Part shown: positions 20,815-35,028 of the stretch, piece by piece
How the letters are laid out: each line of letters begins with the position of its first letter
How positions within the stretch are numbered: the first letter of the stretch is position 1
NCBI GenBank assembly: GCA_012523465.1
Contig: JAAYIK010000025.1
Span: 1-64,000 of the forward strand
Source of the DNA: Lysobacteraceae bacterium
GTDB taxonomy: Bacteria > Pseudomonadota > Gammaproteobacteria > Nitrococcales > AK92
Direction of reading: 5' to 3'
DNA: 64,000 bases
Program-made: the position numbers and the translations under genes
Notes under the pieces: generated by a model
Database searches by the model: none
The model's input: the letters and a program-made list of their open reading frames with translations, nothing else
Told to the model about the DNA's origin: nothing

Positions 20815-20891
20815 TGGCGCACCCGGCTGGATTCGAACCAGCGACCTTCGGCTTCGGAGGCCGACACTCTATCCAACTGAGCTACGGGTGC
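20815..20891 (-). tRNA. tRNA-Arg (anticodon CCG)
   Basis: A 77-nt cloverleaf on the minus strand. The acceptor GCACCCG pairs with CGGGTGC, the D-arm is GCTCAGTTGGATAGAG, the anticodon stem TCGGC/GCCGA encloses CTCCGAA (anticodon CCG, reading CGG), and the T-arm is GCTGGTTCGAATCCAGC. The 3' CCA is encoded (TGG at 20815-20817 on the plus strand). It is followed on its own strand by the reverse side of the TRAP 3' region. Confidence 0.97.
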
Positions 20892-20934: not shown

Positions 20935-21126
20935 GGCTTGCGCCGATATTCTGTGCTATTGTCTGCTGCCGAAGCAGACAAGTGGGCGGAGCCGGTCGTG
21001 TTTTCGCCTGCAGCCTTTGCCGTTATACTCTGGCCTCCTTGCAGCGGCGCGCTCGGGTGATGCCAGAGGCTCTTAGGCGCCATCAAGCGACAAGCCGATT
21101 TGCCATTGTTCAGACGGGAGCTCACC

Positions 21127-21636
21127 GTGAGCAAGCAAGAAGATACCAAGTTCATCAAAACCTTCATCGGTGTGATCATCGCGCTGATCGTCCTGACGGT
21201 CGCACTGATTGTGCTGGCGACCCGCACGGGGTCTCCCACCGAATCCGAACTGCAGGCGAGGCAGGCTCTGGATCGGGAGCGCGCCGAGGAGCGGCTGCAG
21301 CCGGTGGGGGCGGTGCGGCTGTCGGGTGAGCCCATGCCCGAGATCGCGCAGGCGCAGCCGGAGCCGGCGGCGGCTGCCGGGACGCAGACTCCGGAGCAGG
21401 TCGTGCAGTCGGTGTGCGCCAGTTGCCACGATACCGGTCTGCTTGGCGCGCCCACGCGTGGCGACAAGGCGGCCTGGGAGGCGCGTCTGACCAGCAAGGG
21501 GCTGGATACCCTCGTCAGCAGCGCGATCAACGGCTTTGGTGCCATGCCGCCGCGCGGCGGGGCCAGCATCAGCGACGACGAGGTTCGCGAGACCGTGCTG
21601 TTCATGCTGCGCGAGGCCGGCCTCGAGGTCGAATAA
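21127..21636 (+). CDS. Membrane-anchored cytochrome c5-type protein
   Basis: 169 residues. An N-terminal membrane helix ([19 protein letters not shown], about residues 13-35) anchors a Glu/Pro/Ala-rich linker and a C-terminal class I cytochrome domain: heme site CASCH near residue 97 and the Met ligand region [12 protein letters not shown] near 140. It is a periplasm-facing electron carrier of the cytochrome c5 group. The start is GTG at 21127, fixed by GGGAG six bases upstream; TATACT at 21024-21029 may be its -10 element. It converges on the AgmX/PglI-like gene, with a shared hairpin terminator between them. Confidence 0.88.
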
Positions 21637-21650
21637 ACCTGTTGTGGTTT

Positions 21651-21685
21651 CACGAAAAAGCCGGCTTCAAGCCGGCTTTTTCGTG
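21651..21685. terminator. Bidirectional terminator
   Basis: A perfect 17-bp inverted repeat around a single C (arm CACGAAAAAGCCGGCTT) gives AAAAA-GCCGGC-loop-GCCGGC-TTTTT on either strand. It ends both the cytochrome gene (plus) and the 12-gene motor operon (minus). Confidence 0.93.
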
Positions 21686-21700: not shown

Positions 21701-22624
21701 TCAGGACGGGAAGAAGTGGATGGGATAGGTCACCGTCACCGTCTCCACGTCCTTGGCGCCGAAATTGAAGGTGCGTATGCGTGCCAGCAGCCGTTGCTCC
21801 AGCTCCGGGTCGCCCAGCTCGCTGGAGACGATGCCGATATGCGTGACTGCGCCAGAAGGGGCGATGGTCAAGCGTAGCACCACCCGGCCCTGCAGCGCGG
21901 CGTTTTCCCGCAAGGCGCGGTTGTAGATGCCGAAGATGGCGCCTTTGTTGCGATCGAACACCAGCTGGATTTCCTCGTCGGTACGGGTAGCTTTCTTGTT
22001 GCGCTGGCCGGCACCGCCCCCAGGCGGGCCGGTGTCGCCGATGGGGCTGCTGACGATTTGCGTCGAGCGTCCGCCCAGCTGCACGCCGGCGCCGGTGTCG
22101 CGGCTCAGCCTGCTGGTGTTGATGCCACCGCTACCCTGGGCGACGCGGGCGGTGAGGATGGAGCGCTCGGTGCGCTCGGCGCTGCCGCCGGAGGTGGACA
22201 GGCGGCCTTCGCGCAGCCGGCCGGCCGAAGCATCGTCGTGCAGTGACTGCAGGCTGTCTCGCATGGCGAGCACGCCCGCGCGCTGGGCCTGCTCGCGGGC
22301 GCTTTGCGGCTGCGGTGCCGGTGCCGGCCGCTGGGTTGGGGCGGGAGTTTGCGCCGTCTCCGGCGTCGGCGCCACTTCCGCCCGGCTCTGGGCCGGCGGC
22401 GGAATGGGTTGGGGCTCCATCAGCAGGCGGACGTAGCGCCTGGGTTCGGGTTCCGGCGGCGGCTTGGCGAGCTTTACCACCGGCAGAAAGGGAATGACCA
22501 GGCTCAGCAGCAGCAGGATGGCGGCGACCCGCAGCAGGATGCGGCGGAACCGCGCATCCTCCTCGCCTCCGCGGTTCCAGGGCAGCGGCGGAGGCGTCAG
22601 CAGCTCTTGGATGACGGCGCTCAT
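21701..22624 (-). CDS. AgmX/PglI-type TonB-like trans-envelope protein
   Basis: 307 residues, last gene of the motor operon. A short cytoplasmic tail precedes one membrane helix (LLRVAAILLLLSLVIPFLPV, about 28-50), a Pro/Ala/Gln-rich periplasmic stretch (55-110) and, from residue about 215, the AgmX/PglI C-terminal domain, a TonB-like fold: VFDRNKGAIFGIYNRALREN, GRVVLRLTIAPSGAVTHIGI, then RLLARIRTFNFG. By analogy with TonB, TolA and Myxococcus GltG/GltJ it should transmit force from the TolQR-like motor to outer parts. It lacks the GYF and zinc-finger modules of the large Myxococcus AgmX. Start two bases after the upstream TolR stop. Confidence 0.85.
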   Translation of the reverse strand: MSAVIQELLTPPPLPWNRGGEEDARFRRILLRVAAILLLLSLVIPFLPVVKLAKPPPEPEPRRYVRLLMEPQPIPPPAQSRAEVAPTPETAQTPAPTQRPAPAPQPQSAREQAQRAGVLAMRDSLQSLHDDASAGRLREGRLSTSGGSAERTERSILTARVAQGSGGINTSRLSRDTGAGVQLGGRSTQIVSSPIGDTGPPGGGAGQRNKKATRTDEEIQLVFDRNKGAIFGIYNRALRENAALQGRVVLRLTIAPSGAVTHIGIVSSELGDPELEQRLLARIRTFNFGAKDVETVTVTYPIHFFPS

Positions 22625-22626
22625 GC

Positions 22627-23124
22627 TTATCCTCCCTGGTCCGGCTTCTGCACCACTGCCAGCGAGATGCGACCGAAGCCGGCGTCGGCGCAGGTAGCCA
22701 TCACTTTCTTCAGGATCCGGTACGGCGTGCCGCGGTCGCTCATGATGGTGATCTCGCCGCGGTCGCCGTCTTCCTCGCCCGCGGCCTGCTGGCTGGTCAG
22801 CGCCTCGCGCAGGGCCGCGATGATGAGGGCGTCCTCGCCAAGTAGCGGCTCGATTGCGGCGATGGGCTGGCCGTCGATCTGGATCTCGCTGCTGGTCACC
22901 AGAACGGTCGGGGTTTCATGCGGCGAGGTGTCGGCGATGGACTCCGGCAGGTCGACCGCCTTGGGCAGGGAAATCTCCTGCACGTCGTTGGAATGCACCA
23001 GCAGGAAGAACACCAGGATGGTGAAGATGTCCATCAGCGCGACCAGGTTGAACGGCGGCAGCCGCCGCCCGCGGCCGTGTCGTCTCTCCCTGCGCTGCGC
23101 ACGGCGCAATTGCAACATGCTCAA
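22627..23124 (-). CDS. ExbD/TolR-family motor protein with the conserved Asp
   Basis: 165 residues. Basic N terminus, one membrane helix (LVALMDIFTILVFFLLV, residues about 27-43) and a periplasmic domain. Asp32 in ALMDIF aligns with the proton-carrying Asp of TolR/ExbD, so this copy should be the energised one. The periplasmic part ends with RILKKVMATCADAGFGRISL, the usual TolR C-terminal fold. It overlaps the other TolR gene by four bases; together with the TolQ-like protein they form a proton-driven stator. Confidence 0.9.
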   Translation of the reverse strand: MSMLQLRRAQRRERRHGRGRRLPPFNLVALMDIFTILVFFLLVHSNDVQEISLPKAVDLPESIADTSPHETPTVLVTSSEIQIDGQPIAAIEPLLGEDALIIAALREALTSQQAAGEEDGDRGEITIMSDRGTPYRILKKVMATCADAGFGRISLAVVQKPDQGG

Positions 23125-23621
23125 GAACCTCTCCTCAGTTGCGGCGCATCACCGATGGAGACGTCCGGGAACAGCTCGGCATAGACGATGCGCTCGTCCT
23201 GCTGCACCGGCACGACTCGCACGGTGTCCATGACCCGGATCAGCTGCTCATAGGTCAGTTCCGGCTCCAGCAGCAGGGTGGCGGCAACCGTGTCAGGCGC
23301 CCGCGCCTTGAGCTGCTGCAGCAGCGCGGAGAGGCCTTCCAGGTCATGCTGACCGTCGCGGTTGGGCAGCTCCCGCCGCAACCCCGCTGCGTGGTCGCTG
23401 ACCACCAGCCGGTCCTCGCGCACGATCACCTCGAGCTGCAACGGCGGCTCGGCGCTGGCGGCCTGGCTCGCCTGCGGCAGGCTCAGCTCATGGATGGCCA
23501 TGCGGGAGAACACCGCCATCACCAGCAGAAACGGCACCAGCGCCACCATCAGGTTCATGAAGGCGGTGATGTTCATCTCCGCCTCCACAGGCCGACGTCT
23601 GCGCCGCAGGCGGGTGCTCAT
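23121..23621 (-). CDS. ExbD/TolR-family motor protein lacking the conserved Asp
   Basis: 166 residues with the same plan as the next gene: basic N terminus (RLRRRRR), one membrane helix (FMNLMVALVPFLLVMAVF, about 21-38), periplasmic domain ending in QLIRVMDTVRVVP. Aligned with TolR (INIVPLLDVLL against MNITAFMNLMV), the essential Asp is Asn23. The copy therefore cannot carry protons in the known way and is likely structural or regulatory in a heteromeric TolR pair. ATGA overlaps on both sides. A role in sensing load or in peptidoglycan binding is conceivable but unsupported. Confidence 0.9.
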   Translation of the reverse strand: MSTRLRRRRRPVEAEMNITAFMNLMVALVPFLLVMAVFSRMAIHELSLPQASQAASAEPPLQLEVIVREDRLVVSDHAAGLRRELPNRDGQHDLEGLSALLQQLKARAPDTVAATLLLEPELTYEQLIRVMDTVRVVPVQQDERIVYAELFPDVSIGDAPQLRRGS

Positions 23622-24280
23622 GCCGCAGCCTCGTGCGGTTCGGCCGCCGCGGCGCCTGGGTCGAGCTTGTTCAGCATCTTGACCGCGGCCATTTCCAGGC
23701 TGCCGATCACCTGGTTAGTCTTCGATTGCAGCATGGCGTGAAGCAGCAGCAGCGGAATGCCCACGATCAGGCCGAAGGCCGTGGTGTTCATCGCGATGGA
23801 GATGGAGGCGGAGAGCAGGTCCGCCTTTTCCGCCGCGCTGGCGGCCGAGATCGAGGTGAAGGCCTGGATCAGGCCGATGATGGTGCCGAGCAGCCCCAGC
23901 AGGGTGGCGATGTTGGCCAGCGTCGCCAGGTAATGGGTGCGCTTCTCTAGCCGCGGCACGACCTCGAGCATGCTCTCTTCCATGGCAAGCTCGATGGCCT
24001 CCCGGTCGCGGGCCGTGGCCGCGCGGCTGAGCCCGCTGCGGAGGATGGCGCTGATCGCGCTCCTGGATTCCTGGACAATGCCTTGGACCTCGCTCAGCCG
24101 GCCAGCCTGCAGCAGCGGCATGACGCGATTCCAGGCGCTTTGGTTGCGGATTCGGAACAGGCTCAGATAGATGTAGCGCTCGATAGCGATGGCCAGCCCG
24201 AAGGCCAGCACCACCACGATGGGGTACATGAAGATTCCGCCATCCTGAAAGAAGCGGACGATCGTATTGTAAATATCCAT
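23618..24280 (-). CDS. MotA/TolQ/ExbB proton-channel family protein
   Basis: 220 residues, three membrane helices: about 18-36 (YPIVVVLAFGLAIAIERYIY), 115-140 (LANIATLLGLLGTIIGLIQA) and 160-185 (AMNTTAFGLIVGIPLLLLHA). The second and third carry the Gly-rich and Thr-containing faces that line the proton path in TolQ and ExbB. It is the motor core for the two TolR-like proteins encoded next, one TolQ to two TolR genes as in Myxococcus AglR-AglQ-AglS. A 43-bp gap separates it from the upstream small secreted protein. Confidence 0.92.
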   Translation of the reverse strand: MDIYNTIVRFFQDGGIFMYPIVVVLAFGLAIAIERYIYLSLFRIRNQSAWNRVMPLLQAGRLSEVQGIVQESRSAISAILRSGLSRAATARDREAIELAMEESMLEVVPRLEKRTHYLATLANIATLLGLLGTIIGLIQAFTSISAASAAEKADLLSASISIAMNTTAFGLIVGIPLLLLHAMLQSKTNQVIGSLEMAAVKMLNKLDPGAAAAEPHEAAA

Positions 24281-24323
24281 ATCTCAGACTCCTTGTGGCA
24301 CCGCCGGAAGAGCTCGCCGCTTC

Positions 24324-24605
24324 CTAGTCAATCGCCTGCATCGCATGGTAGTAGTCCAGCTCGCGCCGGAAGACTTCTGGGTCCAACGGCCCGATGCCTT
24401 CGTTGAACAGGCCGCTGGCTGGCGACGGCGTCGCCTCGCCCAGCTCCGCGCTTTGCCAGGGGACGATGTAGAGCGCCTTCGGCAGCTCCCTGTTACCGAT
24501 GACGTCCATGCCCTGTAACTCGCGCTCGTCGGTGCTCTCCGTCGCTGCTGCCGTGGCGCCGTTCAGAAGAAAGAGTGCCACTGCCAATGTCCCTGCCCGT
24601 TGCAT
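24324..24605 (-). CDS. Small secreted protein of the motor operon, unknown function
   Basis: 93 residues: signal peptide (TLAVALFLLNGATAAA, cut near residue 21), then a short soluble part with DVIGNRELPKALYIVPWQ and an acidic/Tyr end RRELDYYHAMQAID. I recognise no domain. It lies four bases after the TPR lipoprotein stop and 43 bases before the TolQ start, so it is part of the operon. The NRELPKALYIVPW core looks conserved enough to be a binding peptide, perhaps for a TPR protein; this is speculation. Confidence 0.7.
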   Translation of the reverse strand: MQRAGTLAVALFLLNGATAAATESTDERELQGMDVIGNRELPKALYIVPWQSAELGEATPSPASGLFNEGIGPLDPEVFRRELDYYHAMQAID

Positions 24606-24609
24606 GACT

Positions 24610-25365
24610 TCATCCTTGTTGCCTGCGCCGCTCCAGATCGGCGATCCATTGGTCGACTTCGGGATCCGCATCCCCGGACAGCTCCTGATAGCGGCGGTAA
24701 TGCTCCAGCGCGCAGTCGGGCTGCCGCAGATACAGATCGCACAAGATTCCGAGGTTCAAGTGACCGTGGCGGGACTCCGGATGCGCCGCCAGCAACCGCT
24801 GGTAGAGCGCTTTCGCTTCCTCGAAGCGGCCCGCGCGCCGTTCCAGGATGGCGAGCCAGTTGAGGGCGACCGGATGCTCGGGATCGGTGCTGAGCGCCTG
24901 CCGCAGTACCGCCGTCGCCTGTTCTTGCCTCTCGAGGTGGATATAGGCGACGGCCAGATTTACAAGTACTCCGGACAGCTCGGGATGCCGTTCCGCGACC
25001 GGCTCCAGCGCCTCGGCCGCTTGCCGGTACTGCTGCTGCCGTAGCATGGCCACGGCCTGCTGGAAGACGCGGCGGACCTCGGGCTCGACTTCGCCGGCCA
25101 CGGGTGCGGCCGGCGCTGGCTTTTCCTGTACGGCGGCTGGCTCGGTCTTGGGCAGGGGCGGGCTGCCGGCGCAGCCGGTCATGCCCGCCAGCACGGCCAG
25201 TGGCAAGGCGCGGGCAAGCAGGGCCGTCCGCCGGGGCTGGGCGGGCCCGGCTGCATTGGACTTGGCAGGCTCGTCTCGCGGCCCCTTCGACGGCGTGGTC
25301 GGCCGCAACGGTGCCGCGGGCGCGGGATCGGGGTAGTCAGCGGATGGTTTCGACAAAGTGCTCAC
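24610..25365 (-). CDS. TPR lipoprotein of the motor operon
   Basis: 251 residues. The first 45 residues are Pro/Ser-rich, then a lipoprotein signal (ALPLAVLAGMTGC). Residues 95-235 hold about four tetratricopeptide units (QYRQAAEALEPVAERHPELS, AYIHLERQEQATAVLRQALS, NWLAILERRAGRFEEAKALY, ILCDLYLRQPDCALEHYRRY). The GTG start at 25365 overlaps the upstream gene by 29 bases; a later start nearer the lipobox would give a more usual signal, so the true N terminus is uncertain. Comparable in type to Myxococcus GltE/AglT, a TPR lipoprotein (family analogy only). Confidence 0.8.
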   Translation of the reverse strand: MSTLSKPSADYPDPAPAAPLRPTTPSKGPRDEPAKSNAAGPAQPRRTALLARALPLAVLAGMTGCAGSPPLPKTEPAAVQEKPAPAAPVAGEVEPEVRRVFQQAVAMLRQQQYRQAAEALEPVAERHPELSGVLVNLAVAYIHLERQEQATAVLRQALSTDPEHPVALNWLAILERRAGRFEEAKALYQRLLAAHPESRHGHLNLGILCDLYLRQPDCALEHYRRYQELSGDADPEVDQWIADLERRRQQG

Positions 25366-28267
25366 CTCGCTCCGTCTTGGCGTAACGAACCGGCATCAGC
25401 TCGGCCAGCGCTTCCAGGCTCTTGCGGACCCACTGGTCGTAAATGCCTTCGGCGGTGCGGCTGGCGTTGACCTCGTGCAGCTCGATGGCCTTCTCCTCGA
25501 ACGGCATGGCTTGCTCTTCCAGCAGCACCTCGTATTCGGCCAGCGCCTCGCCCTTGAGTCCGCGCGGCCGTTCCGACTCCAGCAGGGCCTTGCCGAAGTC
25601 AGCGTAGAGCGCAGCGATGGCGTAGTTGGCCGCCGTGGCGATGCCGGCCACCTTGTAGCTAGCTGCCCGTTCGTAGGCGCGCAGGGCGCGACGGAAGGCG
25701 GCCTGCTTCTTGCGCAGGTTCTCTTGCAGCGGCTCGACCAGGCGCAGCTGGGCGTATTCCGCATATGGCTGCTCGGCCAGGGCCAGGGCGGCCTGAGCGG
25801 CTAGGAAGCGGCTGCGGTCGGTGCGCTGGGCACCTGCCTCGGCGTCGGCACGGATGATGGACAGGCGCCAGCTGCGGGCCGATTTGAAGTGGCCCATCTC
25901 CAGCGACAGCTCCAGCAGCTGTTGCTGGGCTTCCAGGTTTTGCCCGAACGGCTGCGGGAAGCGGTGCACGTAGCGGCGGAACACGGCATAGGCCTGCTCG
26001 GGCTTGCCGGCCTGGCGGTACAGCTCCCCTGCCTGCCACATGGCGGCCTGCGCGAGCTCCGGCGTGGCGGCGGCCTCGGCTACCTGCAGATACTCGGCCG
26101 CGGCTTCCTCGCTGCGGCCAGCGGCAAGCAACGCCGCGGCCAGACGGCGGGTGACCTCGGCCTGCTGCTCGTGCCCAGGGAACCGGCGGCGAAAGTTCTG
26201 TAGCGCGGTTATGGCCTCGGGCCATTGCTCCAGCTCGATCAGCACGGCGGCGGCGTCGAACTGGGCGGTGGCGGCCATGGCGGAGTCCGGCACCTCCTGC
26301 GCCGCCCGCAGGAAGGTGGCTGCGGCGGCCGCCAGTTCGCCGTTCTGGCGCTGCCGCTCGCCCTGCTTGTAGATGCTGGCTGCCAGTCGGTCGCCGATCT
26401 GGCGATGCTCATCGCTGCCGGGCGACAGCAGTCGCAGCCCTTCCCGGTAGGCCGCTTCGGCAGCGGCGTAGTCGGCGACATCGAAGGCGCTGTGGCCGAT
26501 GATGCGCAGGGCGATCAGGCGGGTGGCGGCGTCCACCCGGTCCAGCGTGAGGAGCTGCCTGGCCGCGGCCGCCGCGGCCGCGCCGTCGCCCAGCTCGAAG
26601 GTCTGCTGGGCGCTGTGGGCCAGCGCCGATATGGCGTGCTCGTGGCGGGGATATTCACCGGCCAGCTGGCTGGCCGCCGCTAGTACCTGGCGGCGGGCCG
26701 GCAGGCGCTGGTCGCCGGTGGCCCGCTTGGCCAGCTCCTCCAGCGAGAGTACCGCGGCGTAGGCGGCCTCGGCCGAGCGGGCATTGCGTTGCTCGCCGTA
26801 GGCGACCTGCAGGTACTGCTCCGCGGCCTCGGCGTAGCGCTTGTGCTCGTACAGCAGCTCGGCGTAGAGGAAGCGCACTTCCTGCGCCCTGCGGCTGGTG
26901 GGGAAGTTGCTGAGGAAACGCTGGTACCAGTCGGCGGCCGAGGCAAAGTCGCCCTCCTCGCCGCTTTTCTGGGCCTGGGCGTGGTAGTGGCGGGCGAGGT
27001 CGTGCAGGCTGGACTCGAGCTGCGCCACCACCGTTGGATGGTCTTCCGGCCGGCGCCGTTGCCAGAACGGGCTGCGCAGGTCGTAAAGCCGCACGAAGGC
27101 TTTCTGTGCCTCCAGCACCTGGCTGGGGAAACCGCCGGCGCGGTAGGCGTCGATGGCGCGCAACTGGAACTGCGGCCCCTGGTCGCTGTTGGGATAGGCG
27201 GCAACGAAGGCCTGAAAGGTGGCGGCGGCGTCGGAGAAGCGGTCCTTCTTGAGGTATTCCTCGCCTAGAGCGCGATAGAGGATGTCCTCGTCCTTGCGGT
27301 GGCCGCGCAGGCGGAAGTACTCGGCCACGCTGTCCGGGCCTTCCAGATAGGAGAAGCTTAGGCTGATGGCGCGCAGCGTGTCCTCGATGGTCTCGCGTTC
27401 GCCCCGGCTGAGCCGCTCCAGCTGCAGCCGACCCTCGTGCGACTTGAGGTCGATCAAGGCCAGGAAATAGTCGATGCCTTCCAGATACAGGCCCTGCTTG
27501 AACAGCGACCAGGCCCGCTTGTAGAGCGCCTGCTCGTAGAAGCCTGATTGCGGGCCGCGCCCGAGCACGGCGCGGTAGGCGCCGTCGGCCTCGCTATAGC
27601 GCTTGCGCACGAACAGGATCTCGCCGCGACGGAATTGCGCTTCGGCGATGTCGGGGCTGTTGGGATACTGGCGGACCAGGCGCTCCAGTACCCGCAGCTC
27701 GTCCTCCTGCCGCCCGGCGTTGTCGTAGGCGCGGGAGAGCTGATAGAGCACCTGATCGTTCTGCGGGTGATAGGGATAGGCGCGCAGGCGCTCTTCGTAC
27801 AGCGCGATGATGCGCTCGGCCTCCTCGCTGGACAGCGTCTCCCCCGACTCCGGCACCTCCTGAGGCACCGGTTCGGCCTCGGCCACGGCAGCAGGAATGT
27901 GCCTGGCCGCTGTGGCACCAGGATCAGGCGCGGAGCTTTGGCTTGCGGCCTGCTCCTCGACGACAACGGTAGTGACCTGCTCGCTGCCGCCGGCGGGCGT
28001 TGACGCTAGCCCCAGGCGCTCCTCTTCGGCCTCCAGGCTAAGGTCGGCCAGGCGGCGCATGGCCTCGGCCCGCAGCATGGGATCCTCGGCGTGACGCAGG
28101 AATTCGCGGTAGCCGGCGATGGCCCGTTCGCGGTCGGCGGCCGTCTCGGCTGGCAAGGCCGGTAGCGGCTCCTTGGCCAGGTCGGCCAGGGTGCCGCTGC
28201 GCTCGCCCTGGTGCGCGCAGCTGGCCAGCAGCAGCGTGAACAGAACGTAGCAGCGGTAGCGCGTCAT
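25337..28267 (-). CDS. Large TPR lipoprotein of the motor operon
   Basis: 976 residues, a lipoprotein (YVLFTLLLASC at the N terminus) exported to the periplasm. Nearly the whole length after residue 150 is tetratricopeptide-like, with BamD/CpoB-style repeats such as YPYHPQNDQVLYQLSRAYDN, YPNSPDIAEAQFRRGEILF and AYPNSDQGPQFQLRAIDAYR, continuing to about residue 850, then a helical tail. Such solenoids act as scaffolds; by size it is comparable to Myxococcus GltD. ATGA overlap with the upstream TPR gene. No sign of damage across almost 3 kb. Confidence 0.87.
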   Translation of the reverse strand: MTRYRCYVLFTLLLASCAHQGERSGTLADLAKEPLPALPAETAADRERAIAGYREFLRHAEDPMLRAEAMRRLADLSLEAEEERLGLASTPAGGSEQVTTVVVEEQAASQSSAPDPGATAARHIPAAVAEAEPVPQEVPESGETLSSEEAERIIALYEERLRAYPYHPQNDQVLYQLSRAYDNAGRQEDELRVLERLVRQYPNSPDIAEAQFRRGEILFVRKRYSEADGAYRAVLGRGPQSGFYEQALYKRAWSLFKQGLYLEGIDYFLALIDLKSHEGRLQLERLSRGERETIEDTLRAISLSFSYLEGPDSVAEYFRLRGHRKDEDILYRALGEEYLKKDRFSDAAATFQAFVAAYPNSDQGPQFQLRAIDAYRAGGFPSQVLEAQKAFVRLYDLRSPFWQRRRPEDHPTVVAQLESSLHDLARHYHAQAQKSGEEGDFASAADWYQRFLSNFPTSRRAQEVRFLYAELLYEHKRYAEAAEQYLQVAYGEQRNARSAEAAYAAVLSLEELAKRATGDQRLPARRQVLAAASQLAGEYPRHEHAISALAHSAQQTFELGDGAAAAAAARQLLTLDRVDAATRLIALRIIGHSAFDVADYAAAEAAYREGLRLLSPGSDEHRQIGDRLAASIYKQGERQRQNGELAAAAATFLRAAQEVPDSAMAATAQFDAAAVLIELEQWPEAITALQNFRRRFPGHEQQAEVTRRLAAALLAAGRSEEAAAEYLQVAEAAATPELAQAAMWQAGELYRQAGKPEQAYAVFRRYVHRFPQPFGQNLEAQQQLLELSLEMGHFKSARSWRLSIIRADAEAGAQRTDRSRFLAAQAALALAEQPYAEYAQLRLVEPLQENLRKKQAAFRRALRAYERAASYKVAGIATAANYAIAALYADFGKALLESERPRGLKGEALAEYEVLLEEQAMPFEEKAIELHEVNASRTAEGIYDQWVRKSLEALAELMPVRYAKTERGEHFVETIR

Positions 28268-29910
28268 CGGTTCCTCCCGGGTCGTTCCGCCGCCGGATCG
28301 TAGAGCTGCGCGAGAATGAAACGGGCCTGGGTGACCTGGGAGCGGACGGCATCGCGCCGCTCGCCCAGGGCTTGCAGCGCCTGTTGCTGCAGCACTTGCT
28401 GCTGGGTGTCGCGGCGCTGCTCGACCCGCTCCAGCAGCGCGGCCACCCGCTCGCGCATGAGCTGAATGCGGCCTTCGAAGGCAAGAAAGTCGTCCTCGGC
28501 CCGCGCCTTGATCGAGCCCAGCGCCGCGTGGCGCTGGCGCAGCTCACGCAGCTGCCGCTCCAGGGCGCGCAAATCGGCCTCCTTGCCAAGGGGCAGCGCC
28601 GCCTTGAGGGCCTGATAGCGCTGCTCCAGCGCCGTCGGCGCGAGGGCAGCGAGCCGCTGCTCCAGCTCGGGCAGCTTGCGCTCGAAGCGGCTGCGATGAT
28701 CGGCAAGGACGATTTCGAGCTGGTCCAGCTCGCCCAGCCACCAACGCAGATTGGCCGCCAGCGCGTCGATGTCCTGATAGTCCTGCAGGGCGCGGCGGAA
28801 CCCGTGGCTGGCGAGCAGGGTACCCAGGTAGGCGCGGCCGGGGACGTGCTCCAGCGGCGGCAGCTCGTTCTTGCGCGGATCGATCTGCAGCGTGACCTGC
28901 AGCAGAGCGCCGCGCTCGATCTCCCGCATGGCCTCCTCGATGCGCCCGGCCTCGGCCGAGAGTAGCTCGGTGGCGGTGCGGTACAGGTTGGCGGCTTGCT
29001 CGCGGGCCTGCAGCTGCAGCAGCGCATAGGGTATGGCCAACATGGCTTCCTGCACGGCCGGGTCGGCGATGGAGCGGCGCCGCAGCTCTTGCCAGGGCAC
29101 GAGCGCCGCCCGGTGGTCGCCCGCCATCAGCTCGGCCCAGCCGGCCCCGAGCAGCGCCAGATTGGAGACCGGACCCTGCAGCCGCACTTGCTGCAGGACT
29201 CGCTTGGCCTGCTGCGGTTGCGTCGGCAGCAGGGCGCGGGCGATGGCGACGTTGGCCTGATCGCGCAAAGCCAGGGCTTCCTCGGTTTTAGCCGGAATCC
29301 GGCCGACCCGGCGCAGCTGTTGCACGCCTGCCTCCAGCTGACCGCTGCGGATCAGGGCCACGCCGAGGTTGTAGCGGCCATAGGGCTCGTCCTCGGGCGG
29401 TCCGTGCCAAGGGTCCAGCATGGTCGCGGCGCCGGCGAAATCGCCTTGGCGCATGTGTACCAGCGCGCTCAGCAGCTGCCGCCGACCGGCGAAGTCGGGC
29501 GGCAGTCGGTCGCCGATCTGGGCCAGGGCGTGGGCCGCCTGGTCCAGCCGGTCTTTCTGGAACGCCAGCTGCGCCAGGTAGTACCAGGCATGGTCGTGCA
29601 CCTCGCGGGGCGCTTGCTGGCGCAGCAAGCGATTGAAGATGCGCTCGGCGGAGTCGGTCAGGCCGTAGGAGAGCTTGAGGCTGCCCAGCAGCAGCTCGGC
29701 CTGGAACCAGTCGCGCTCCAGCCGTCCCTGGCTGCGGGCTGCCATCAGCAACGTCAGGGCGGTGAAGTAGTCTTGCTTGTAGAAATGGAACAACGCCTCG
29801 CCGTAGCGGGCGTTCTCCACCCGCTGGCCGGGGATGGTGGGCGCTGCCAGCGCCGTGCTTGCGCTAAGCAGTAGGCCGCAGAAGGTCGGTAACAGCCGGC
29901 GCATGGTCAT
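28264..29910 (-). CDS. Exported TPR/coiled-coil protein of the motor operon
   Basis: 548 residues. A signal peptide (LLPTFCGLLLSASTALA) is followed by TPR-like repeats to about residue 300 (EALFHFYKQDYFTALTLLMA, LAQLAFQKDRLDQAAHALAQ, RYNLGVALIRSGQLEAGVQQ) and a long Gln/Arg-rich coiled coil from about 380 to the end (ERVEQRRDTQQQVLQQQALQ). I chose the start at 29910 (MTMRRLL), which gives an ATGA overlap with the gene before it and a normal signal peptide. Probably a periplasmic scaffold bridging the motor and the outer-membrane barrels (inference). Confidence 0.83.
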   Translation of the reverse strand: MTMRRLLPTFCGLLLSASTALAAPTIPGQRVENARYGEALFHFYKQDYFTALTLLMAARSQGRLERDWFQAELLLGSLKLSYGLTDSAERIFNRLLRQQAPREVHDHAWYYLAQLAFQKDRLDQAAHALAQIGDRLPPDFAGRRQLLSALVHMRQGDFAGAATMLDPWHGPPEDEPYGRYNLGVALIRSGQLEAGVQQLRRVGRIPAKTEEALALRDQANVAIARALLPTQPQQAKRVLQQVRLQGPVSNLALLGAGWAELMAGDHRAALVPWQELRRRSIADPAVQEAMLAIPYALLQLQAREQAANLYRTATELLSAEAGRIEEAMREIERGALLQVTLQIDPRKNELPPLEHVPGRAYLGTLLASHGFRRALQDYQDIDALAANLRWWLGELDQLEIVLADHRSRFERKLPELEQRLAALAPTALEQRYQALKAALPLGKEADLRALERQLRELRQRHAALGSIKARAEDDFLAFEGRIQLMRERVAALLERVEQRRDTQQQVLQQQALQALGERRDAVRSQVTQARFILAQLYDPAAERPGRNR

Positions 29911-30440
29911 TGCCACTCGCGAAAGACGAACTCCGGCTGCAGCTTCTGCTGCCGGTCGGAGACCTTCAGCTCCAGGGTCTTGGGCGCGTGCTCCTTGCGC
30001 GTACGCAAGGCGGCAGCGCGGCGGTACTCGCGGCCGTTGGGGCCGACGCCGGTGAAAAAGGCCACCAGCTCGTACTCGCCGACGGGCAGGTTGCCGATCC
30101 AGAGCCGGTGCGAGCCGCCCCGGCTGAGCGCCTGCAGCTCCTTGTCCGAGTACAGGTGCCGCGCAACCACCTTGTCGTTGATGCGCAGTTCCACCGATTC
30201 CAGCTGCAGCAGGCTGCCGCGGTCCATCGACACGTACACGGCCAGCTGCCGGCTGGCAGGAAACAGGAGGTCCTCCTGTAGGATTAGCAGATCGCGGTTG
30301 GCGGCCAGCACCTCTTCCTTGAGCGCCTGCAGCTCGTGGTCCAGCGCGCTGGGGTCCAGCGGCTCGTCGCCGGCTGTCGGCCCGGCCCACCAGAGCGCCA
30401 TCGCCAGGCAGGACAGCGTCAGCATCCGGTTCCAGTTCAT
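29907..30440 (-). CDS. Secreted protein of the motor operon, unknown domain
   Basis: 177 residues: signal peptide (MLTLSCLAMALWWAGPTAG), a helical segment (LDHELQALKEEVLAANRDLL), then a beta-rich part reminiscent of an immunoglobulin-like fold: VELRINDKVVARHLYS, HRLWIGNLPVGEYELVAFFT, GPNGREYRRAAALRTRKEH. I assign no function. It is placed between a beta-barrel gene and a TPR gene, with a 27-bp gap upstream and a 4-bp overlap downstream, which ties it to the same complex. Confidence 0.75.
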   Translation of the reverse strand: MNWNRMLTLSCLAMALWWAGPTAGDEPLDPSALDHELQALKEEVLAANRDLLILQEDLLFPASRQLAVYVSMDRGSLLQLESVELRINDKVVARHLYSDKELQALSRGGSHRLWIGNLPVGEYELVAFFTGVGPNGREYRRAAALRTRKEHAPKTLELKVSDRQQKLQPEFVFREWQ

Positions 30441-30467
30441 CGATCGCGCCTCCTTGCGCCGCCGGGG

Positions 30468-31118
30468 CTAGAAGTACACCGCCAGCCCGGCGGTCAGCTC
30501 CGTGTTGTAGGTCAGCTCGGACTCGCCGAAGAGGTCGGTCTCGAACATGTGCTCGCGCACGTCTATCCGCAGCGTCAGCCAGTCGTTGACCAGCAGCCGG
30601 AAGCCTAGGCCCAGATTGAAGGTGAAGTAGTCCTCGCCAGCGAAGCGCAGGCCGCCCAGGCCGGTGGTGAGGAACAGAGCGCTGGCGTAGGCGCGGCGGG
30701 CGCCGAGGAAGACCTCGCCGGGCAGGGCGTTGAAGCCCAGCGAGACGCTCAGGTACTCCAGATCGCGGCTGCGGCCGCCAAGCGGGCCGTTGCGCACCAC
30801 CCGGGCGTAGATCTCGTCGCTGGCCTCGGACAGGCCGAGGTTAGCTTCGAGGAAAAAATCCTCGGTTAGGTGATAGCCCAGCCGGATGCCGTAGACCGGA
30901 TTGCTGCCGAGGTGCTCCAGCTGCAGAACGCCGGCGAACAGCCCGACCTCGACGTCGCGGGCATCGATGCGCGGCACGCGAATGTCCTGCCGGGCCACGC
31001 GCGGCTCCAGCGGCTGCTCCGCCTCGCCCCTGGGCGCAGGCGGCTGCGCCAGGGTTAGCAGGGGTGCGCCGAGCAGGGCGAGAGCGGCCAGAATGCGGAT
31101 TGTGCGTGTCATACCCAT
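30468..31118 (-). CDS. Outer-membrane beta-barrel protein (OMP_myx_plus type)
   Basis: 216 residues: signal peptide (ILAALALLGAPLLTLAQ), a short acidic/basic linker, then alternating beta strands (VEVGLFAGVLQLEHLGSN, YGIRLGYHLTEDFFLEANLG, FNLGLGFRLLVNDWLTLRID) and a terminal Phe (LTAGLAVYF), the recognition signal of the BAM machinery. The pattern fits the small outer-membrane beta-barrel family also found in Myxococcus GltA/GltB. Start at 31118 after GAGGAAAGGGG; an in-frame ATG six bases later is an alternative. Confidence 0.83.
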   Translation of the reverse strand: MGMTRTIRILAALALLGAPLLTLAQPPAPRGEAEQPLEPRVARQDIRVPRIDARDVEVGLFAGVLQLEHLGSNPVYGIRLGYHLTEDFFLEANLGLSEASDEIYARVVRNGPLGGRSRDLEYLSVSLGFNALPGEVFLGARRAYASALFLTTGLGGLRFAGEDYFTFNLGLGFRLLVNDWLTLRIDVREHMFETDLFGESELTYNTELTAGLAVYF

Positions 31119-31127
31119 CCCCTTTCC

Positions 31128-31871
31128 TCAAAACAGCAGCACGAAGCCGGCTGTCAGCTCGTGATAGTTCTCGCTGTCGCCGTCGAAGCGCGCCCGGTTC
31201 CAGCGCCAGTCGGCGCGCAGCGCGAAGCGCGGCTCCAGCTGCCAGCTCGCCCCCAATCCCAGGTTGAGGTTCCAGCCGTCTTCCTTGGCGTCGTCCACCA
31301 GCGTTCGGCGCGGCTGGTTCTCGATCCAGCCCACGCCGGCCAGCAGATGCAGCGGGAAGCGCTGCTGCGGCCAGGGCCGCGCGGCGGCTTCCAGGCGGAT
31401 GAGACGGGTGCTGGAGTAGTCGCCCGCCGCCTGGGCGACCGCGAGCTCTGCCGACCAGTGCGGCGTGAAGCGATAGCCGCCCCAGAAGCTAACCACCGGT
31501 TCGTCGTCGAACACGCCGGCATTGAGGCCTGCCCGCAAGCGATCCTCAATGTGCCGGTCGAGGATGGCGGCGCGTAGGCCTTCGGCCACGCCGGCCGCGG
31601 CCAGGGTGGCGCGCAGCTGCTCGCGGTGGACCCAGCCGCTGGCGCCGTCGGCCTCGACCTGGTACCAGTCGGTGCGGCGATTGACGATGCCGATCACGCT
31701 GCCGCGCTCGATGGACTGAGTGACGGGATATCCCCGTCCGGGGCCGGTGCGCAGGTCCAGGTAGGGGTCGTGCACTTCCACCTGCAGCGGTGCGGCGGCC
31801 AGCGACAGCGGCAGCAGCAGCAGACTCAGCAGCCAGGCAGCGGCCAGCTTGTTGGGACGAAAGATGCGCAT
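31128..31871 (-). CDS. SH3-domain outer-membrane beta-barrel protein
   Basis: 247 residues: signal peptide (AAAWLLSLLLLPLSLAAA), a bacterial SH3 domain at about 28-90 (YLDLRTGPGRGYPVTQSIER, TDWYQVEADGASGWVHREQL), then a second-half barrel (SFWGGYRFTPHWSAELAVAQ, LNLGLGASWQLEPRFALRAD) ending in GFVLLF. SH3b domains bind peptidoglycan or peptide ligands, so this protein may tie an outer-membrane barrel to the cell wall. I chose the start at 31871 (MRIFRPNK) because residues before it are Arg/Pro-rich and not signal-like. Nine bases separate it from the next barrel gene. Confidence 0.83.
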   Translation of the reverse strand: MRIFRPNKLAAAWLLSLLLLPLSLAAAPLQVEVHDPYLDLRTGPGRGYPVTQSIERGSVIGIVNRRTDWYQVEADGASGWVHREQLRATLAAAGVAEGLRAAILDRHIEDRLRAGLNAGVFDDEPVVSFWGGYRFTPHWSAELAVAQAAGDYSSTRLIRLEAAARPWPQQRFPLHLLAGVGWIENQPRRTLVDDAKEDGWNLNLGLGASWQLEPRFALRADWRWNRARFDGDSENYHELTAGFVLLF

Positions 31872-32043
31872 TTCTCGTTCTTCCTGTTGGCGCCGCCGGC
31901 GGCCGGGTCGGGGATGCCGGCCGTAGCCGCGCGGCGGGCGAGCTTCCTTGGGCGGCACGCCCTTGTTATGTCGGTTCGGCCTCTCCCGGGGGCTTTGTGT
32001 GCTAACGGCAGCCGGGGAGGCCGGCGTTGACCGATTCGGCGTT

Positions 32044-35028
32044 TCAGCGACAGCCGGTCGCGATCCAGTCATGCAAAATCGAATACCCCTCATCCCCAGG
32101 TAGCAGCATGGGCCCGCGAACGCCGCCGCGGTCGACGCTGGGATGCGCCAGTGGGTCCTGTTCGGTCGAGCTCGGGCGCAGCAGCAGCGCGTTGGCAGCT
32201 GGGTCGCAGGGATCGCCGACCATGGCGGCGGCAGCGCCGAAGTCCGCCTCCACGGTGCCCGTCAGCGCGAAGCGGTTGGGCGCATGGGGCGGGTTGCGGT
32301 GATTGGGCGCGCCGATGTCGCTGCTGTTGGCCTGCGGCAGATGGCAGCCTAGGCAACGGTTGCGCAGCAGCGGGTGCACTTCGACCGCGAAGCGATCGCG
32401 CGCCAGCAGGGCGGCACTGGTCTCGCGCGCTGGCACGTTGCGGTAGGCCGCGCCCAGGTCTATCCATTCGACGATCAGCCGCCGTTCGCCTGGCGTCAGG
32501 TAGCCGCCATGGTCGGGCACGCCGTCCAGCGATTGCGGCGCTAGCAGCTCCTGGCCGAACAGCACCTCGACCAGATGGCTGCTGCGGGAGCTGTCGGCGG
32601 AGCCGCCGACGGTGACCAGCGGTGGCGAACGCTCGATGACGGTGCGGCCGTCGCGCTGGACCGCCGTCGCGCCTTGCGGGCGGCCCAGGACCAGGCTGTC
32701 ATAGGAGCGCAGGCGGCCGGAGGGGGCGAGCGCGTCACTCAGGTCCAGCCTGCTGCCGGGGCCGTGGCAACCGAGGCAGTTGGCGTTCCAAATCGGCTGG
32801 ATGTGGCGGGCGTAGTCGATGATGCCCTCATCCGGGCGTAGCGTCGCTGGGTACGGTAGGGTCAGATCGGGGTCGGGCGCGCGGCCGGCGCTGACCGGGT
32901 CGGTCCAGACATCGGTAAAGAAAGGATCCGGCTGCAGCTGCAGCGCGGTCGGATCCAGCCGGGTGCGGGTTTCGGCCATGGTCTCGCCCGGCAGGGCGCT
33001 GAGGGCGGCTCGCGAGCCTTCGAACGGACCGCCTGCCGGGGAGCCGGCATTGAGCGGCTGTACGCTGCGGTGAGCCGAGTGGCAGCCGTGACAGCGGCGC
33101 TCCTCGCCCGGGCGGGCCTGCAGCCAGCTGGTGTGAGTTTGGAATGCGCGGCCTTGGGCGTCCACCACCGCCAGGGCGAGCGGGGTGTCGGCCGGCACCG
33201 CCACGCGCACCGAGCCGTCCGGCTCGATGGGTGCGTAGCCGAGCAGCTGTTGCATCTTGAAGCTGGTGGCGCCGATGCCGTCCAACGACTGCCCTGGCGG
33301 CGTCGGCAGGGCGCGACTGATGCGCAGGAAGCGGGCCGGACGTTCTGCCGCCGTGGTCAGGCGGGCGTCGCGCAGCCGCGCCAGGTTCGGCCGGCCGGTG
33401 GCATCGCGCGGGATGCGCTCGCCTTCGACCAGCACGCTCTCGCCCATGCTGTCGAGGAAATCGGTGTCGTAGACGCTGCGAATGTTAAGAATGGCCTGCG
33501 GCACTGGCTCGGGATCGGGTTCCCCCGGCTCGCCCGGCTCGCCAGGCTCACCAGGCCCTCCGGGTTCGCCAGGATCCTCGCATTCCTCGGGCGGCGGCTT
33601 CGGATCCGGTTGCGGATGCGGCCTGGGACTGACGTCGTCGGGGCATTCCGACTCCGGCTCGATCGGTATGCACTCGCCGGGCGGTCCCGGCCGCGGCGCG
33701 TAGCCTTGCGGGCAGCCCGGCTCGTTGGGCACGCCGACGCAGGATTCCCGCATGGTGCCGTCCGGGCACAGCCAAGGCCGGGGCGCGACACCCGGATCGC
33801 CGGGGGCGCCGGCCGGAGGGATCACCGCCGGCTGTGGCCGCGGCATCAGCGCGACCGGGCTGAGCAGCGCCCGCCCTTCGCGGGCGGTTGCGATCAGCCG
33901 CATGCTGCGGTCGTCGAGGTCCAGCATGTAAATGCCGTAGCGCGGCTCGGTCTCGCCCGGTACGGTCGGGCTCGGCGTCCCGCCGCGCTGCGGCGGCGAC
34001 CAGGCTACCAGCACCCGGTTGCTGCCGTCCCAGAGCGGATAGGGCGTGGTATAGCGGCCGTTGGGCGAGGCTGCCCGGCCCAGCGGCAGTTCGTACAGGG
34101 TCGGCTGGTACTGGCCCGCGCCAGGGAGGCCATCCAGGCGGCGGCGATGGTCGGTGTGGGTTCTGACGTCGGCGATCACCAGCGCGCCGCCGTTGCGCAC
34201 GCCGGCCAGCGGCAGCACGGTTGAAATCACGCGCCCGTCCGGCATCTCGCGCGGATGCAAAAAGCTGTCGCCGGGGCTGAAGGCGCCGTAGAGCACGTTC
34301 AGCTCCCGGCCGTCGGGACGGATGGTGAAGATCGGCTGGTGGTTACGATTGCCGACGTGATCCCAGCGGACGTACATGATCTCGCCGTTCATGCGCACGC
34401 TGGGGTTGCGGTCGTGGCTTTGGTTGAAGGAGATCTGCTCGATGTTGCCGCCGTCGGCATCCATCACGTGCAGCACCAGCGCCGCCTCACGGTTGTAGCC
34501 GTCGGCGTAACTGAAGGGCGGCATGCCGGCCGCCTCCAGCTGCGCCCTGCTGTTGGCCTGGCGGTTGGAGGTGAACACGATGCGGCCGTCGGGCAGGTAG
34601 TGCGGGTCGAGATCATCGCCGGCGTTGGCCAGCTCGTCGTCGGCGATCACGCGCCGCAGGCTGCCGCTGTCCAGGGAATACTCCCAGATGTTCCAGGTCG
34701 GGTCGTCCGGGCCGCGCATGGAGAAGATCAGCCGGCGGCCGTCGTAGGAGACGTTGGGACTGCTCACGTCGCCCCGGCCGCGGGTGTATTGGTAGGTGAT
34801 GTTGTGCGCCGGGGCGCTGGGCGAGGACAGCTCGCGCAGGTACAGGTCTCCGCCGGGAACGAAGGTTACGCCGTCGGCTGCGTTTCCCGCCGCTTCGAGC
34901 GCGCGGTCGGCGTAGGCGATGGGGTAGTCGCCACCCACGACGATGCCGCCGCTGCTGCCGCCGCAGCCAGCCGTGGTGGCAACCAATGCGAGCGTCAGCA
35001 GATGCAGCCGGACATTCTTAGAGTTCAT
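32044..35028 (-). CDS. HzsA-like triheme lipoprotein with beta-propeller and collagen-like linker
   Basis: 994 residues, a lipoprotein (LALVATTAGCGG). Residues about 50-400 are a PD40/TolB-like propeller (VSSPNVSYDGRRLIFSMRGP, DLDPHYLPDGRIVFTSNRQA, SHDRNPSVRMNGEIMYVRWD), followed by a Cys/Pro-rich spacer and a Gly-Glu-Pro repeat near 480-500. The C-terminal third holds three heme motifs: CHGCH near residue 646, CLGCH near 749 and CLGCH near 890, each in a cytochrome-like setting, resembling the hydrazine synthase alpha-subunit (HzsA-like) family. This does not imply anammox. Likely a periplasmic or surface redox protein. First gene of the motor operon; a 172-bp gap follows it, so a separate promoter for the remainder is possible. 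Confidence 0.82.
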   Translation of the reverse strand: MNSKNVRLHLLTLALVATTAGCGGSSGGIVVGGDYPIAYADRALEAAGNAADGVTFVPGGDLYLRELSSPSAPAHNITYQYTRGRGDVSSPNVSYDGRRLIFSMRGPDDPTWNIWEYSLDSGSLRRVIADDELANAGDDLDPHYLPDGRIVFTSNRQANSRAQLEAAGMPPFSYADGYNREAALVLHVMDADGGNIEQISFNQSHDRNPSVRMNGEIMYVRWDHVGNRNHQPIFTIRPDGRELNVLYGAFSPGDSFLHPREMPDGRVISTVLPLAGVRNGGALVIADVRTHTDHRRRLDGLPGAGQYQPTLYELPLGRAASPNGRYTTPYPLWDGSNRVLVAWSPPQRGGTPSPTVPGETEPRYGIYMLDLDDRSMRLIATAREGRALLSPVALMPRPQPAVIPPAGAPGDPGVAPRPWLCPDGTMRESCVGVPNEPGCPQGYAPRPGPPGECIPIEPESECPDDVSPRPHPQPDPKPPPEECEDPGEPGGPGEPGEPGEPGEPDPEPVPQAILNIRSVYDTDFLDSMGESVLVEGERIPRDATGRPNLARLRDARLTTAAERPARFLRISRALPTPPGQSLDGIGATSFKMQQLLGYAPIEPDGSVRVAVPADTPLALAVVDAQGRAFQTHTSWLQARPGEERRCHGCHSAHRSVQPLNAGSPAGGPFEGSRAALSALPGETMAETRTRLDPTALQLQPDPFFTDVWTDPVSAGRAPDPDLTLPYPATLRPDEGIIDYARHIQPIWNANCLGCHGPGSRLDLSDALAPSGRLRSYDSLVLGRPQGATAVQRDGRTVIERSPPLVTVGGSADSSRSSHLVEVLFGQELLAPQSLDGVPDHGGYLTPGERRLIVEWIDLGAAYRNVPARETSAALLARDRFAVEVHPLLRNRCLGCHLPQANSSDIGAPNHRNPPHAPNRFALTGTVEADFGAAAAMVGDPCDPAANALLLRPSSTEQDPLAHPSVDRGGVRGPMLLPGDEGYSILHDWIATGCR

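Follow-up and report, generated by a model that had tools for sequence, protein, structure and literature searches.

In Myxococcus, the AglRQS motor moves the Glt and Nfs complexes by proton-motive force, and GltA, GltB and GltC each bind the other two (PMC4488436, PMC3858216); AglRQS also contacts GltG. An Agl-Glt core complex of Gammaproteobacteria consists of aglRQS, gltC, gltD, gltE and gltG, and its function is not known (Luciano et al. 2011, PMC3169522). Here we analysed a window of 64,000 nucleotides (contig JAAYIK010000025.1, positions 1 to 64,000, assembly GCA_012523465.1) from a Lysobacteraceae bacterium, in which twelve tightly packed minus-strand genes running from position 35028 to 21701 join an Agl-Glt-like motor to two outer-membrane barrels and a multiheme lipoprotein resembling the alpha subunit of hydrazine synthase (HzsA). 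The association of heme gene, motor and barrels is near-obligate among heme-bearing relatives, and one of the two stator axle proteins carries Asn in place of the proton-carrying Asp. We put the probability that these genes encode one trans-envelope machine, in which a proton-driven motor acts on a heme redox load in the outer membrane, at about 0.5.

Heme gene and motor do not lie together by chance. Among 369 genomes sampled evenly across the class, in which the gene of the large tetratricopeptide repeat (TPR) lipoprotein b served as marker for motor presence, the heme gene was found in 51 genomes of 31 families, the large TPR gene in 88, and both in 50 (Fisher 2e-36). As the genomes share kinship, this value overstates their independence, and the spread over 31 families together with the scatter on the tree described below is the better argument. 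The lone heme-bearing genome without a motor (G087) has no large TPR gene, and its heme gene is truncated and broken by a repeated element. At that site (L104:8000-10300, minus strand), the HzsA-like pseudogene contains two copies of the inserted repeat and ends near a tRNA-like sequence. Of 52 heme genes, 36 share a contig with the TPR gene, 35 at a distance of 6.7-14.6 kb and one at 21.3 kb. In a sample of the same order, each of the five genomes that carry the large TPR gene also carries the heme gene, and one further genome of the same genus, fragmentary and 78% complete, carries only the heme gene. In a phylum-level sample, matches were confined to the same class, and a scan of named genomes with the heme protein returned one clear relative (an Ectothiorhodospiraceae metagenome-assembled genome) and four weak cytochrome-motif matches. 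A preliminary description of the stretch had noted that the heme protein is foreign to the known machine; it is not peculiar to this operon, being a regular partner of the motor throughout 31 families.

About 70 loci of relatives were fetched, profiles were built from the window genes and gene orders were drawn. In the order that recurs, the heme lipoprotein is followed by SH3-barrel and barrel, in most relatives by TlpA, DUF4266, DUF3570 and ApbE, and then by sec, TPR a, b, c, F, Q, R1, R2 and arm. The gene order of the operon is thus seen again in dozens of genomes, so that the arrangement is not due to chance, and the TPR and barrel genes do belong together, as had been presumed. Of 46 heme loci, 40 contain the SH3-barrel and 39 the barrel; among 24 loci lacking the heme gene, the barrels were present in one. 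The loci therefore combine a constant motor and periplasmic part with an exchangeable outer-membrane part. Q, R1, R2 and arm were complete in 44 of 46 loci having TPR b and arm, and the three linked TPR proteins keep the same order across dozens of loci. The sec gene occurs in most motor loci (35 of 46 with and 22 of 24 without the heme gene) and is likely an overlooked core part outside the seven genes of the published core.

All twelve genes of the operon are open reading frames, listed here together with the inverted repeat behind them:

32044..35028, minus strand: triheme outer-membrane-type lipoprotein, HzsA-like, 994 amino acids; PD40 propeller, HZS_alpha middle domain, CxxCH at residues 646, 751 and 892, lipobox Cys22
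31128..31871, minus strand: SH3 domain plus OmpA-like beta-barrel, 247 amino acids; SH3 and PF13505
30468..31118, minus strand: outer-membrane beta-barrel of the TIGR04565 OMP_myx_plus family, GltA/GltB-like, 216 amino acids; 147 bits, cut-off 60
29907..30440, minus strand: small secreted protein sec, 177 amino acids; no known family, conserved directly upstream of TPR protein a
28264..29910, minus strand: TPR protein a, 548 amino acids; in the GltC place after the barrels, TPR families
25337..28267, minus strand: large TPR lipoprotein b, 976 amino acids; GltD-like by position, TPR families
24610..25365, minus strand: TPR lipoprotein c, GltE-like, 251 amino acids; NF033758 28 bits, below cut-off
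24324..24605, minus strand: small secreted protein F, 93 amino acids; motif GxxIIGNxELPKxLYIVPWK, GltF-like in size and position only
23618..24280, minus strand: TolQ/AglR-like proton channel, 220 amino acids; PF01618 100 bits, Thr133 and Thr167 invariant
23121..23621, minus strand: TolR1, stator axle in the AglQ position, 166 amino acids; PF02472, Asn23 where the proton-carrying Asp is expected
22627..23124, minus strand: TolR2, stator axle in the AglS position, 165 amino acids; PF02472, Asp32 kept
21701..22624, minus strand: AgmX/PglI-TonB arm, 307 amino acids; NF033768 and TonB_C, one N-terminal hydrophobic segment, no FHA domain
21651..21685, no strand: strong inverted repeat with 16-bp stem and T tracts directly behind the last gene, likely terminator

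The preliminary description had named one TolQ, two TolR, an AgmX/PglI protein, three TPR proteins, two barrels, two secreted proteins and the heme gene, all of which were confirmed. Most neighbours overlap by about 4 bases or lie within 50 bases of each other. Starts were set by ribosome sites and overlaps and were refined for the SH3-barrel (31871, not 32093), TPR protein a (29910) and the small secreted protein F (24605); with the start at 31871, the gap between heme gene and SH3-barrel gene is about 170 bases. No sigma-70-like promoter was found in the stretch. The convergent gene at 21100-21636 (plus strand) encodes a membrane-anchored monoheme cytochrome (Cytochrome_CBB3, 53 bits) and ends 65 bases from the operon end; the inverted repeat is likely a terminator common to both. 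This cytochrome is a possible electron partner, and it was not seen as a conserved neighbour among relatives. Further on, a tRNA-Arg (CCG) at 20815-20891 (minus strand) is the sole tRNA found in the window; long open reading frames listed across it are spurious.

Profile searches placed TolQ and the TolR proteins with neither Tol-Pal nor ExbBD. TolQ reached 59.6 bits against the Tol equivalog (cut-off 221) and the TolR proteins 24.8-27.5 bits against the TolR equivalog (cut-off 127.3); all were also far below the ExbBD cut-offs. Against PF02472, TolR1 and TolR2 scored 57 and 63 bits. As the same genome carries elsewhere a TolQ-TolR-TolA set above cut-off and a TonB-ExbB-ExbD set, the operon encodes a separate motor, and a duplicate of Tol-Pal or ExbBD was dropped as an explanation in view of these sets and of the scores below the equivalog cut-offs. 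The Agl-Glt-like trans-envelope motor proposed in the preliminary description is thereby supported: one TolQ-like and two TolR-like proteins outside Tol-Pal and ExbBD are encoded together with a TonB-like arm, whose AgmX/PglI tail matches NF033768 with 69 bits (cut-off 40) and whose TonB_C domain is above cut-off. This domain would also suit a dedicated uptake system of the Ton/Tol kind, in which the arm opens or loads an outer-membrane receptor (e.g. for iron) while heme and flavin proteins reduce the substrate, and an iron transporter does occur in some DUF3570 clusters (PMC8238504). However, a TonB-dependent receptor was not recognised among the recurring neighbours, the barrels are small and OmpA-like, and the operon motor scores far below the ExbBD and Tol cut-offs in a genome with its own TonB-ExbBD, all of which makes uptake improbable.

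Among the remaining parts, TIGR04565 was above cut-off for one barrel and weak for the SH3-barrel, the likeness to GltA/GltB being one of family match; GltC and GltD were named by position, and the GltE match is below cut-off. An NCBIfam search of protein F gave no GltF match, so that its likeness to GltF is one of size, position and motif; with its conserved ELPKxLYIVPWK stretch it may be the GltF counterpart, and GltF has been compared to a TonB box (PMC9389320). The operon had earlier been likened to the gliding and sporulation machinery; this stands for the core and the outer-membrane barrel pair and was otherwise too specific, nothing further having matched and the gammaproteobacterial core being of unassigned function. 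Gliding motility, in which the motor would move adhesion complexes along the surface in the Myxococcus manner and the heme protein would be an accessory, would agree with the motor, the TPR proteins, the TonB-like arm and the two barrels, which fit the Agl-Glt plan. The match is limited to this core and barrel pair, however, an FHA-type GltG was not found, and gliding would leave the near-obligate heme partner without a reason; we regard it as very unlikely.

A sequence alignment of the stator proteins revealed an asymmetry that the preliminary description had not noted. TolR1 has Asn at the position of the proton-carrying Asp in 46 of 47 loci (Asn23 in the window), whereas TolR2 has Asp there in 46 of 46 (Asp32 in the window). 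The single odd TolR1 belongs to a locus (L110) whose sequences differ from the rest. At this position, three further TolR/ExbD proteins of this genome carry Asp, and Thr133 and Thr167 of TolQ are invariant across the loci compared. A 5:2 motor with Asp on each axle, that is in both TolR transmembrane helices, was thus not found. The Asn/Asp split is seen both in loci that have the heme gene and in those that lack it, and so characterises the entire group sampled. In Myxococcus, AglQ and AglS are both predicted to have the Asp, and the AglQ substitution Asp28Asn abolished conductance and paralysed the machine. A TolR1 homodimer could not carry protons via the usual Asp; the fixation of Asn in one partner argues that the axle is heterodimeric and has only one proton site, or that TolR1 is structural. 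The split bears on the question of homo- versus heterodimers of AglQ and AglS, which was not known at the time of a 2022 review (PMC9389320).

The heme protein matches PD40 and PF18582 (76 bits) and contains three CxxCH motifs, the PF18582 middle domain being followed by CxxCH. A family profile matched hydrazine synthase alpha (5C2V) with an E-value of 1.9e-22 over the propeller, the middle domain with the first CxxCH and the C-terminal part, in the same order in both proteins and weakly in the outer parts. This co-linear match indicates an HzsA-like architecture; a TolB-like propeller match (39 bits) is below cut-off. A true hydrazine synthase was dropped as an identity, as the whole-protein NCBIfam model for hydrazine synthase alpha gave 77.6 bits against a cut-off of 800 and was missed by a factor of ten. 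The heme protein of relatives comes in a triheme and a diheme form. The triheme form, which is that of the window, usually stands next to c07, a small heme lipoprotein, and the diheme form usually goes with the genes c02-c03-c05. A 2025 survey of HzsA relatives reports that the top structural matches include none with another experimentally confirmed function (PMC12758564), and a literature search for HzsA-like proteins linked to gliding or TonB systems found nothing. One group of such proteins now gains a genomic context.

Clustered neighbours in relatives include DUF3570, a TlpA-like thioredoxin, ApbE and small CxC-ending lipoproteins of DUF4266 form. DUF3570, DUF4266, thioredoxin and ApbE constitute a flavinylation set (Meheust et al. 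2021, PMC8238504), and neither a motor nor a TPR partner is mentioned in the main text of that paper. Of the 51 heme-bearing genomes, 49 contain DUF3570; the window's own genome and G087 do not. DUF3570 adjoins DUF4266-type CxC peptides in nearly all loci. The genes c02, c03 and c05, which accompany the diheme form and are divergent from the heme gene, encode a monoheme secreted protein, a LamG diheme lipoprotein and a secreted protein; c03 occurs in 42 of 51 heme genomes. Examples lie at L089:9348-14795 and L102:9634-14974, where the genes are unannotated and gave no family above cut-off except the LamG domain. In the window's genome DUF3570, ApbE and c03 were looked for and none was found, which leaves the heme lipoprotein, the two barrels and the motor as the minimal conserved unit. 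Cytochromes with 21 and 24 CxxCH motifs adjoin motor loci in L119 (1-2176, minus strand) and L073 (a 612-residue open reading frame). As L119 is without an HzsA-like gene, recruitment of multiheme partners may have happened repeatedly.

When 62 large TPR proteins were placed on a tree, those labelled with heme grouped together in part and did not form one clade. The label requires about 10-12 changes, at least 7 of them forced by starred branches; shuffled labels required 17.6-19.2, and 0 of 500 shuffles were as low. This tree does not support the view that the heme linkage arose once: the linkage is repeatedly lost or gained. One well-supported group comprises heme-free motors, several of which are followed, after the arm, by a secreted protein of more than 1,100 residues, and one of its member genomes (G002) has both kinds of motor locus. 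Such very large secreted proteins, found in one clade at L111:16224-20000, L120:1-4125 and L127:1-3563, are candidates for an alternative load. They would also fit an Nfs-like machine in which the motor moves or packs an exported surface polymer, and in which the heme protein, the LamG cytochrome and further secreted proteins of relatives oxidise or cross-link it. Agl-Nfs moves the Exo polymer around the spore, and the lectin-like LamG domain of the frequent c03, accompanied by c02 and c05, points in the same direction. Polysaccharide export or synthesis genes, however, do not recur among the clustered neighbours and the window's genome is without c03, so that we hold a polymer machine to be unlikely.

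We favour the single trans-envelope machine. TolQ with the TolR1/TolR2 pair would constitute a proton-driven motor of the inner membrane, whose force might be carried across the periplasm by the AgmX/TonB arm and the TPR proteins a, b and c, with F and sec. The two OmpA-like barrels would form the outer-membrane end, where the HzsA-like multiheme lipoprotein would be held as load. By analogy to the contacts known from Myxococcus, arm and TPR proteins may link the motor to the two barrels. The motor would then pull, or move along the surface, an outer-membrane complex that transfers electrons or carries out oxidation, and this redox chemistry may serve either electron transfer at the surface or oxidative work on a polymer there. 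Most relatives could feed electrons to this complex, or draw them from it, via a path of TlpA, DUF4266 and flavinylated DUF3570.

Several points weigh against this proposal. The heme gene lies in a block of its own, which in some loci (e.g. L078, L080, L101) is transcribed divergently to the motor genes, so that co-regulation without contact could suffice, and genes sharing one operon need not form one complex. It is missing in 38 of the 88 motor-bearing genomes, from which it follows that the motor works without the heme protein. DUF3570 and ApbE are missing from the window's genome, and the flavin path cannot apply there. An AlphaFold model of the heme protein from two sequences had a predicted local distance difference test (pLDDT) value of 29 and was not used. 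The divergent or separated blocks and the heme-free motors would equally be expected if the heme/barrel block and the motor shared a regulon or a habitat and acted apart. Such a mere genomic association has little probability in view of the motor in 50 of 51 heme genomes across 31 families, with a pseudogene as the exception, and of the window, where both reside in one tightly packed operon. A more far-reaching version of the single machine is a tentative proposal that we think could well be wrong: a proton-driven Agl-type motor, in which one axle works and the other is proton-dead, would exert mechanical drive on a multiheme complex of the outer membrane. If true, it would represent a class of machine, widespread in Gammaproteobacteria, coupling envelope force to cell-surface redox chemistry.

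Compared with known systems, the operon shares with Tol-Pal the combination of TolQ-TolR with a TonB/TolA-like arm. In contrast to HzsA (5C2V), its heme protein is a triheme or, in relatives, diheme lipoprotein, and genes for beta and gamma subunits were not recognised alongside. The four gene kinds of the DUF3570/DUF4266/thioredoxin/ApbE clusters lie inside most heme-bearing motor loci of relatives, whereas the set is missing from the window. With the Agl-Glt and Agl-Nfs systems of Myxococcus xanthus the operon has in common a proton-driven motor of the AglRQS type, TPR proteins, a TonB-like component (GltG/GltJ) and, putatively, the two paralogous outer-membrane barrels (GltA/GltB) adjoining a TPR protein. 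It differs in an arm without FHA domain, in having no GltI-like giant protein, in the heme lipoprotein at its head and in TolR1, which has Asn where AglQ requires Asp28. The gammaproteobacterial core of Luciano et al. stems from the same bacterial class and likewise unites one TolQ, two TolR, a TonB-like arm and TPR proteins in one cluster. Its seven genes include no heme, barrel, F or sec gene, which are regular members here, and TolR1 here is without the proton-carrying Asp. The core motor is thus known already, and the statistically strong redox partner module and the stator asymmetry are new; the heme/barrel module, often together with the flavinylation module, provides a first lead to the load of the gammaproteobacterial Agl-Glt core.

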